From Leptotrichia sp. oral taxon 212 (GTDB lineage: Bacteria; Fusobacteriota; Fusobacteriia; Fusobacteriales; Leptotrichiaceae), in the NCBI RefSeq assembly GCF_001274535.1, contig NZ_CP012410.1:124001-188000 (forward strand): a stretch of 64,000 nucleotides of DNA, written 5' to 3'. The stretch's first letter is position 1, and the number at the start of each line of letters is the position of its first letter. The notes under the pieces were generated by a model, which was given only the letters and a program-made list of their open reading frames with translations, had not been told where the DNA came from and did not search any database. Below are positions 36,750 through 56,207 of this stretch, piece by piece. Made by a program: the position numbers and the translations under genes.

Positions 36750-36776
36750 TTGACAAATTTAAAAAAGTGTTATACG
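36750..36776 (+). promoter_or_regulatory. Promoter of the riboswitch-cbiMNQO unit
   Basis: A perfect -35, TTGACA (36750-36755), is followed by TATACG (36771-36776) at a rather short 15-base spacing, a few bases before the riboswitch. Confidence 0.45.
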
Positions 36777-36784
36777 ATTAATGA

Positions 36785-36955
36785 AATTATAGGTGTTTTT
36801 TTAAACTTAATAAGGAAATCGGTTAAAATCCGATACAGCCCCCACTACTGTGAAACAGACGAAAGTACATAAGACCACTGAAATATTTGATATATTTTGG
36901 GAAGGGTACGAGTAGGATGAAGTTAGTCAGGAGAATTGCCTAATAATTTTATATA
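36785..36955 (+). ncRNA. Cobalamin riboswitch
   Basis: Conserved elements appear in order: ATAGGTG at the start, a small hairpin ATCGGTTAAAATCCGAT, the core ACAGCCCCCACTACTGTGA, a purine-rich arm ending GGGTACGAGTAGGA, and the B12 box TCAGGAGAATTGCC at about 36927-36940. It senses adenosylcobalamin-type ligands and should lower expression of the cobalt transporter operon when B12 is plentiful. Confidence 0.93.
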
Positions 36956-37069
36956 AAATTTTCTGGGAAGGGAAGATTTAATATACATCAATAAAAATAA
37001 ATCAATAGTGATTTATTCCATGGAATGATATTATTATGTAATGCTAAATAATAATATGGATTTTGACGT

Positions 37070-50314: not shown

Positions 50315-51325
50315 ATGAAATTAGCATTTTGGACTGTAACCAGAGGTGCGGGAAATATTGCGAGAGAATATAAGGAACAATTACAGGGGCATTTAAAAGG
50401 TTATGATATAGATGTTTTTACATTGAAAAAATATGATGTAGAAAATACAATTCAGATAGAGGATTTCACTGCCAATATAAATGAAAAATTTTCCTGGTAT
50501 GACGGACATATTTTCATAATGGCAAGCGGAATTGTAATTAGAAAGACAGCGGGACTGATTGGAACAAAGGATAAGGATCCTGCTGTACTTTTAATAGATG
50601 AGGGAAAACATTTTGTAATTTCCCTTTTATCAGGGCATTTAGGTGGAGCAAATGAGCTGACGTATTTACTTGCGGGGACTCTAAATCTTATTCCTGTTAT
50701 TACGACGAGTTCAGATGTTACAGGGAAAATAGCAGTGGATACCATATCTCAGAAATTAAATGCAGAGCTTGAAGATTTAAAATCAGCAAAAGATGTAACT
50801 TCTCTTATTGTGAATGGGCAAAAAGTGAACGTACTTTTACCTGAAAACGTTAAGGTGAATGGCAAAAACTCAGCAGACGGCTTTATTCTAGTTTCAAATA
50901 AGAAAAATATTGAATACACCAGAATTTATCCTAAAAACTTAATTTTGGGTATCGGGTGTAAGAAGGATACAAAAGCGGAGGATATTTTATCTGCCATTGA
51001 AGACTGTCTAAATAAAAATAATTTAGATATAAAATCAGTTAAAAAAATTGCGACTGTTGATGTAAAGAAAAATGAGAAGGGATTAATTGATGCCGCTAAA
51101 TCTTTAAATTTAGACTTAGAAATAATCTCAAGGGAAGAAATAAAAAAAATTCAGAACCAGTTTGAAGGTTCGGATTTTGTAGAAAAAAATATTGGAGTGA
51201 GGGCGGTATCAGAACCTGTTGCACTGCTGGCTTCATCACAGGAAGGGCATTTTATCGAGATGAAGGCAAAATACAACGGAATAACGATTTCAATATATGA
51301 AGAGGAGCTAAAAATATATGAGTAA
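50315..51325 (+). CDS. cbiG: Cobalt-precorrin-5A hydrolase
   Basis: A 336-residue CbiG that opens the delta-lactone of cobalt-precorrin-5A and releases acetaldehyde. It has Met-Ala-Ser-Gly-Ile-Val-Ile-Arg near residue 69, Leu-Leu-Ser-Gly-His-Leu-Gly-Gly-Ala-Asn-Glu near residue 108, and a C-terminal domain starting Leu-Ile-Leu-Gly-Ile-Gly-Cys-Lys-Lys. Length is typical. GAAAGGA precedes it, and it overlaps cbiH by eight bases. Confidence 0.94.
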   Translation: MKLAFWTVTRGAGNIAREYKEQLQGHLKGYDIDVFTLKKYDVENTIQIEDFTANINEKFSWYDGHIFIMASGIVIRKTAGLIGTKDKDPAVLLIDEGKHFVISLLSGHLGGANELTYLLAGTLNLIPVITTSSDVTGKIAVDTISQKLNAELEDLKSAKDVTSLIVNGQKVNVLLPENVKVNGKNSADGFILVSNKKNIEYTRIYPKNLILGIGCKKDTKAEDILSAIEDCLNKNNLDIKSVKKIATVDVKKNEKGLIDAAKSLNLDLEIISREEIKKIQNQFEGSDFVEKNIGVRAVSEPVALLASSQEGHFIEMKAKYNGITISIYEEELKIYE

Positions 51326-52058
51326 TGGAAAAATTTATGTGGTGGGTATAGGGCCTGGAAAAAAGGAAAATATGACATTCAGGGCATATGAAGCAATGGA
51401 GAATAGTGATATAATAGTAGGATATAAAACTTATGTGGATTTGGTGAAGGAATATTATCCTGGAAAAGAGATGAAAAGCTCCGCAATGACAAAGGAAGTG
51501 GACAGATGTACAGAAGTACTTGAACTGGCAAGACAGGGGAAAACAGTCAGTCTTATAAGCAGCGGTGATGCAGGAGTTTATGGTATGGCGGGAATTATGC
51601 TGGAAATTGCCGATGAAGATATGGAAGTTGAGGTAATACCTGGAATAACTGCCACTAATGCTGCTGCAGCTATTGCAGGAGCACCGATAATGCACGATTA
51701 TGCTACAATAAGTCTGAGTGATCTGCTGACTGACTGGGAGCTGATAAAAAAAAGGCTTGAACTTGCTGCGCAGGGAGATTTTGTTGTGAGTATTTATAAT
51801 CCTAAAAGCAGAGGAAGGGTCACACAGATAGAAGAAGCAAGGGAAATAATGATGAAATATAAGCCTAAGTCAACTCCTGTGGCAATAGTAAGAAATGCAG
51901 GAAGGGAAGATGAAAGATATGTTCTGACTACTCTCGATGAAATGCTCAATCACGAGATAGATATGCTTACAATAGTGTTAATTGGAAACTCAAATACATT
52001 TGTAAAGAATGGGAAGATAATAACTCCAAGAGGATATGAAGGGAAATATGATTATTAA
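51318..52058 (+). CDS. cbiH: Cobalt-precorrin-3B C17-methyltransferase
   Basis: A 246-residue ring-contracting SAM enzyme. It starts Val-Val-Gly-Ile-Gly-Pro-Gly, with Val-Gly-Tyr-Lys-Thr-Tyr-Val-Asp, Ser-Ser-Gly-Asp-Ala-Gly-Val-Tyr-Gly, Ile-Pro-Gly-Ile-Thr-Ala, and Ser-Leu-Ser-Asp-Leu-Leu. It methylates C17 during contraction to the corrin. GAGGAG supports the start. Confidence 0.95.
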   Translation: MSNGKIYVVGIGPGKKENMTFRAYEAMENSDIIVGYKTYVDLVKEYYPGKEMKSSAMTKEVDRCTEVLELARQGKTVSLISSGDAGVYGMAGIMLEIADEDMEVEVIPGITATNAAAAIAGAPIMHDYATISLSDLLTDWELIKKRLELAAQGDFVVSIYNPKSRGRVTQIEEAREIMMKYKPKSTPVAIVRNAGREDERYVLTTLDEMLNHEIDMLTIVLIGNSNTFVKNGKIITPRGYEGKYDY

Positions 52059-55455: not shown

Positions 55456-55559
55456 GACAAGTGCAAGGTTCAACAGCTATTTAAAAAAATAATTTTTTCA
55501 GTACAATATTAAAAGAAAAATATAAATAAAAAAACAAAAATTGAAAGAGGTGTTTATTT

Positions 55560-55712
55560 ATGAAAATATTAAAAAAACTATGGGATATGCTACCGGAAGG
55601 ACGTCCTGTTTGAGTGCCCGGACCTGCGGAGTGGGGAATAGAACAGGAAGAAGATAAGAAAAGTAATGAAAACTTAAAGGAAAAGGATAAAGAAAAAGAA
55701 TCAGAAAAATAG
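55560..55712 (+). other. Small ORF with an in-frame UGA (possible recoding or decay)
   Basis: AGAGGTG is followed by ATG 55560, 17 codons ending Pro-Glu-Gly-Arg-Pro-Val, and TGA at 55611-55613. The same frame then continues for 32 codons (Val-Pro-Gly-Pro-Ala-Glu-Trp-Gly, then a Glu/Lys-rich tail) to TAG 55710-55712. Around the TGA the DNA is unusually GC-rich, with a GGACGTCC palindrome just before it. It could be a UGA-decoded peptide, a 17-residue peptide, or a gene with a fresh nonsense mutation. Confidence 0.4.
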
Positions 55713-55733: not shown

Positions 55734-56207
55734 ATGGAATTTACGATAAAGGAAATAACTGATAAAAAGGAAAAGGAAATAATATCCAGAGATATATTGA
55801 ATGATCTTCCGGAATGGTTCGGTATGCCGGAAAGCACAGAAGAATATATTAAAGATTCACAGGATAAACCATTTCTAGCGTGCTTTATTGATAATGAGGC
55901 AGCTGGTTTTGTTGTATTAAATGCTACAAGTAAGGACTGTGCAGATATTTTTGTAATGGGAATTAAGAAAAAATATCATCGTATGGGTGCAGGCAGAAAA
56001 CTGAATGATGCCTATGAAGAAATGGCAAAAAAACTTGGATATACATATTCACAGGTAAAGACAGTTAAAATGGGTCACTATAAAGAATATGATATTACTA
56101 ATCAATTTTATATATCCATGGGATATAAGGAATTAGAATGCTTTCCAACCTTGTGGGATGAATGGAATCCTTGTCAAATCTATATAAAATATATTGGAGG
56201 GAAATAA
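55734..56207 (+). CDS. GNAT family N-acetyltransferase
   Basis: A 157-residue acetyltransferase starting Met-Glu-Phe-Thr-Ile-Lys. It contains Leu-Pro-Glu-Trp-Phe-Gly-Met-Pro-Glu-Ser-Thr-Glu-Glu-Tyr near residue 27, typical of one GNAT subgroup. The CoA loop is His-Arg-Met-Gly-Ala-Gly-Arg-Lys, with Phe-Tyr-Ile-Ser-Met-Gly-Tyr later. GGAGG lies four bases before 55734; ATG 55713 is possible but lacks a site. It directly follows the UGA-interrupted ORF. Confidence 0.82.
   Translation: MEFTIKEITDKKEKEIISRDILNDLPEWFGMPESTEEYIKDSQDKPFLACFIDNEAAGFVVLNATSKDCADIFVMGIKKKYHRMGAGRKLNDAYEEMAKKLGYTYSQVKTVKMGHYKEYDITNQFYISMGYKELECFPTLWDEWNPCQIYIKYIGGK

Follow-up and report, generated by a model that had tools for sequence, protein, structure and literature searches.

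A candidate mini-selenoprotein gene with an in-frame UGA in a genome of the Leptotrichiaceae

Cys/TGA pairs of bacterial selenoproteins, in which the Sec-encoding UGA aligns with Cys in Sec-minus relatives, have been described (PMC12013277, PMC1794560) and are mostly redox enzymes with UxxC/CxxU-type motifs. The mini-gene analyzed here displays the same alignment, but its product is an orphan of 50 residues whose only U/C stands in RPV-U-VP. It would share UGA recoding with SelA/SelB/SelC/SelD with the bacterial selenoprotein families in Table 1 of the 2026 inventory (PMC13188914). No RPxUVP motif was seen in the first part of the table or by term search of the inventory, and neither Leptotrichia nor Fusobacteria are mentioned in its main text. 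Also close is a small Leptotrichia protein encoded directly after holA, which belongs to the same family as the mini-gene product (56-67% identity over the full length, same start and end) and has Cys at the UGA position. This Cys form is found in genomes without SelB and at another locus than the UGA form of the source genome.

The reading frame and its homologues

The window is the whole stretch of 64,000 nucleotides that was analyzed, and positions refer to it unless a contig is named. The frame starts with ATG at 55560, meets TGA (55611-55613) after 17 codons, continues for 32 sense codons and ends with TAG at 55710-55712 (Table 1). Its translation is MKILKKLWDMLPEGRPV-U-VPGPAEWGIEQEEDKKSNENLKEKDKEKESEK and its ribosome site is AAAGAGGTG. 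An earlier note on this DNA had described a good ribosome site, 17 codons, the UGA and 32 open codons, and each of these features is present in the sequence.

Table 1. Features at the mini-gene locus (window positions)
Feature	Position	Strand	Evidence or remark
Shine-Dalgarno region GAAAGAGGT	55544..55552	+	kept as AAAGAGGTGT in Leptotrichia homologues
Candidate mini-selenoprotein gene, 50 codons with a UGA in frame	55560..55712	+	homologues in 10 Leptotrichia genomes span the UGA; stop aligned
GGACGTCC palindrome, part of the E-G-R-P coding sequence	55599..55606	+	alignment with homologues
Predicted RNA structure, non-consensus SECIS candidate	55604..55648	+	folding statistics; spacing outside the consensus
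UGA codon 18, where the family has its single invariant cysteine	55611..55613	+	Cys in 11/11 homologous copies
Next gene, GNAT-type acetyltransferase	55734..56207	+	family assigned by eye; start probably at 55734, with 55713 as the alternative

A six-frame search of 149 genomes including the source genome matched the 50-codon frame across the UGA in ten Leptotrichia genomes, with 11 homologous copies (E-values 7e-17 to 9e-13) since one genome had two. The carriers, among them Leptotrichia hongkongensis and Leptotrichia sp. oral taxon 879, all come from this single genus, which is not that of the source genome but belongs to its family; three Leptotrichia genomes were without a copy. Profile searches of 98 genomes of the phylum and of 389 genomes, which included the phylum set, added no homologues beyond the same set, and the 389 genomes held no distant homologues outside the two genera and only one UGA-bearing sequence; weak matches at E > 0.03 were rejected. 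No family for the 50-residue protein was identified in Pfam or NCBIfam, no homologue was detected in viral contigs, plasmids and phages, and Rfam gave nothing at 55560-55712. A DUF2138 match at E 0.07 was below the cut-off and chance-like, and YbdD/DUF466 (KCU-star) was considered and dropped for want of resemblance. Judged by these searches, the mini-gene family is small, orphan and confined to two genera.

The homologues share the start, the ribosome site, an aligned stop and mostly the length, and invariant residues flank the UGA on both sides (M.ILKK.W..MLPEGRP.[C/U]VP.P..WG..QE..K). The Cys at the UGA position is the sole cysteine of the protein in the homologues, and it is encoded by TGT in the ten copies read at the DNA level. 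In one homologue (L011) the tail is frameshifted. The second copy in the genome with two (G029 C1:204496-204636) follows the first at a distance of about 2 kb; its N-terminus is altered and its tail is longer. Matches at E 1e-12 to 1e-17 from 10 other genomes run across the UGA and agree in start, ribosome site and end, which identifies the 50-codon frame as a real gene and more than chance.

In comparisons with nine Leptotrichia homologues, pN/pS was 0.28-0.37 upstream of the UGA (codons 2-17) and 0.25-0.44 downstream of it (codons 19-42), so that differences on either side were mostly synonymous (about 0.3-0.4). For codons 19-34 alone, which offer few sites, pN/pS reached 0.80 in two comparisons. 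The 32 codons after the UGA contain no frameshift and no further stop. Conservation downstream of the UGA, on which the earlier note had made recoding depend, is clear, and the substitution pattern shows protein-level selection on this part over most of the divergence; the age of the UGA is not given by pN/pS.

Selenocysteine machinery and genomic context

The source genome is a single contig of 2,444,904 bases (99.5% complete). It encodes SelB (344 bits, above the curated cut-off) and a tRNA-Sec (selC) with a UCA anticodon (tca; 72.8 bits). The genes selA, selB, tRNA-Sec, selD and a yedF-like gene form one cluster outside the 64-kb window, their names, except that of SelB, being assigned by eye from translations. 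The earlier note had found no sel genes in the window; selA, selB, selC and selD are elsewhere in the genome. It had also counted a sense codon in relatives together with a lack of sel genes against recoding, and what was found is a sense codon in the relatives and a full sel set in the genome. SelD begins with MDGKKLSMIVCGG-UGA-NSKIGPGAL (CGG-U-NSKIGPG), and a UGA-bearing SelD was detected in all of the SelB-plus genomes of the family (6/6). One in-frame UGA is present in GrdA of the source genome, and each of its three GrdB genes has an in-frame UGA followed in frame by GTCTRCGAT. With this machinery and these genes, the source genome counts as one that uses selenocysteine.

SelB was identified in six of the 33 genomes of the family, and in none of the Leptotrichia genomes carrying the Cys form. 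In the other Sec-using genomes of the family a profile search detected no mini-gene. Because the Cys-form Leptotrichia genomes are without SelB and the source genome has the Sec machinery, the UGA of the mini-gene occurs only where it is decodable, a pattern that comes from a single UGA-bearing lineage. By this distribution the Cys/UGA pair of genes matches the Sec-minus/Sec-plus pair of lineages.

The source-genome mini-gene sits between two acetyltransferase genes. The downstream one starts 22 nt beyond the stop of the mini-gene and is not a shared neighbour in Leptotrichia. In the source genome holA is located at C1:828154-829130 and is followed by an ABC-transporter-like gene, with no mini-gene. 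Because the locus differs, after holA versus between acetyltransferases, the mini-gene has been moved, or gained, in one lineage.

Some further observations concern the neighbouring sequences. The holA gene (DNA polymerase III delta) of the source genome (C1:828154-829130) is broken at A-rich runs into two overlapping frames, and that of L. hongkongensis (L048 4841-5826) is likewise split at another place; either sequencing indels or real frameshifting would account for this. The sequence beyond holA and the mini-gene varies by Leptotrichia species and encodes small uncharacterized proteins, and an IS-type transposase lies near the mini-gene region in L. hongkongensis (L048). Within the window, a cobalamin riboswitch was detected at 36774-36957 (82.8 bits) and cobalamin-biosynthesis-like genes near 50315-52058.

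RNA structure around the UGA

The DNA around the UGA is rich in GC compared with its surroundings, as the earlier note had stated: 55% in 56 nt (55600-55655) versus about 31% in 200-base windows there. The note had taken a palindrome and CCG/CGG pairing as signs of constraint at the RNA level. Both exist, the pairing being that of 55618-55620 with 55627-55629, but the palindrome is accounted for by protein coding, because it is part of the conserved Glu-Gly-Arg-Pro and common to most Cys homologues (in L009 it is broken to GGGCGTCC). On the alignment, the GC-rich GGACGTCC is thus a coding feature and gives no evidence of RNA constraint.

A scan with the consensus bSECIS model, which places the hairpin loop 16-37 nt after the UGA, found no fitting element in 55611-55660, in agreement with the earlier note, which had seen no convincing bacterial SECIS. 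The best mini-gene hairpin with its loop in that range had -2.8 kcal/mol and was unremarkable among random TGAs. GrdB displayed a regular hairpin, CGUUGC-GGU-GCAACG, with its loop 18 nt after the UGA, and the best hairpin energies in the three copies were -4.6, -8.5 and -7.1. GrdA is a known, experimentally verified selenoprotein family. The GrdA of the source genome resembles the mini-gene in having an in-frame UGA and a failed consensus scan; it differs in being a verified enzyme family, and no sequence similarity between the two was noted. Because GrdA scored only -1.2, at least one real case in this genome escapes the SECIS scan. The consensus features are typical of most, not all, bacterial SECIS according to the 2026 inventory (PMC13188914), and a consensus tool missed 13% of known selenoprotein genes in test genomes (PMC12013277).

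Another structure was predicted that includes the UGA itself. An 8-bp stem, UCCUGUUU/GAACAGGA (55604-55611 with 55641-55648), encloses an apical hairpin (CCCG/UGGG, CC/GG, loop UGC at 55625-55627), and the UGA lies inside this outer stem. The 56 nt around the UGA folded to -19.2 kcal/mol (z -2.9 against shuffles), a stability reached by 2/1000 random TGA sites of the 64-kb window, and were more stable than synonymous recodings at p about 0.007; these 56 nt were selected for the analysis once the fold had been seen. The Cys homologues showed no excess RNA stability over synonymous recoding (p 0.08-0.79), and the 45 nt from the UGA onward (55611-55655) folded no better than shuffles (z +0.31). 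The predicted structure around the UGA lends weak support to a SECIS reading.

The GrdA context UGA-ACGGCUGC-[AG]GGU-GCGAUGG is nearly identical in DNA, even at synonymous sites, between genera of the family, and it fits no consensus SECIS. This conservation suggests a SECIS type with short spacing in Leptotrichiaceae.

Evaluation of the readings and possible role

We regard the mini-gene as a candidate for a new, lineage-specific mini-selenoprotein, with a probability of about 0.7. We stop short of calling it an established selenoprotein, since no consensus SECIS was detected and the UGA form is known from a single sequence. The earlier note had proposed the UGA as a recoding candidate and had kept a recent nonsense mutation as a live alternative. 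The former gains from the Sec machinery, the invariant Cys in Sec-minus relatives and the downstream conservation, and lacks the consensus SECIS. The latter is weakened by the sel genes and the match with Cys, and draws strength from the same missing SECIS, so that Sec recoding is now better supported by the comparative data than a nonsense mutation.

The main competitor, which we consider unlikely though worth serious attention, is that a recent TGT-to-TGA mutation or a sequencing error cut a Cys protein to 17 residues and that the downstream codons have not yet decayed. A single base change suffices for this, and pN/pS, which does not date the UGA, leaves room for a recent event. The single UGA-bearing sequence, the absent consensus SECIS and the non-ancestral locus, at which acetyltransferase and orphan genes surround the mini-gene and its loss may do little harm, agree with it, as do the tolerance of the tail to change (L011) and the three Leptotrichia genomes without the gene. 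However, the sole stop hits the single invariant Cys, although 26-30 one-step nonsense mutations are possible per gene in the Cys homologues and only one of them falls on the Cys codon; it occurs in the only carrier of the gene that decodes Sec, the frame carries no other damage, and the RNA stability exceeds that of synonymous recodings (p 0.007). Far less probable is a true stop at the UGA, with the 17-residue MKILKKLWDMLPEGRPV as a leader peptide acting on the acetyltransferase gene: the RNA structure does overlap the UGA and that gene starts 22 nt after the end of the frame, but the homologues are full 50-residue proteins without such a downstream gene, the amino acids downstream of the UGA are conserved, and a terminator-like site was not found. 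A chance open frame, for which its shortness and high GC might speak, is practically refuted by conservation of the gene in 10 other genomes, where its start, ribosome site and end are the same.

If the mini-gene is a selenoprotein gene, translation would start at 55560 and continue through the UGA to the TAG at 55710, with SelB and Sec-tRNA(Sec) inserting selenocysteine at codon 18 instead of termination and the RNA structure at and after the UGA aiding this insertion. The protein would begin with a short amphipathic helix, hold Sec in a Pro-rich turn (RPV-U-VPGP..WG) and end in a charged helical tail; the structure prediction was of low confidence (pLDDT 59, pTM 0.19) and helices 3-9 and 30-49 are only suggested. 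Because Sec replaces the only cysteine of the family, it would most likely act as a single reactive selenolate, either in redox chemistry or in binding metal, and perhaps at the surface of the membrane, a role and location indicated solely by composition. That Sec is inserted, which element serves as SECIS and what the protein does biochemically are all inferred. There may be about an even chance that this is an undescribed family of very small selenoproteins (50 aa) whose only Sec stands in RPV-U-VPGP and is decoded through a non-consensus SECIS (short spacing or UGA in the stem), made or lost by a Cys/Sec switch between related genera differing in the Sec trait.

If true, the mini-gene would represent a new selenoprotein family whose size and motif are both unusual, and automatic annotation would cut its product to 17 residues or omit it. 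It would also provide a clean natural pair for Cys-to-Sec conversion, Cys without SelB versus UGA with SelB. The UGAs of GrdA and the mini-gene in Leptotrichiaceae, both in non-consensus contexts, would then help to define what the SelB of this group recognises.
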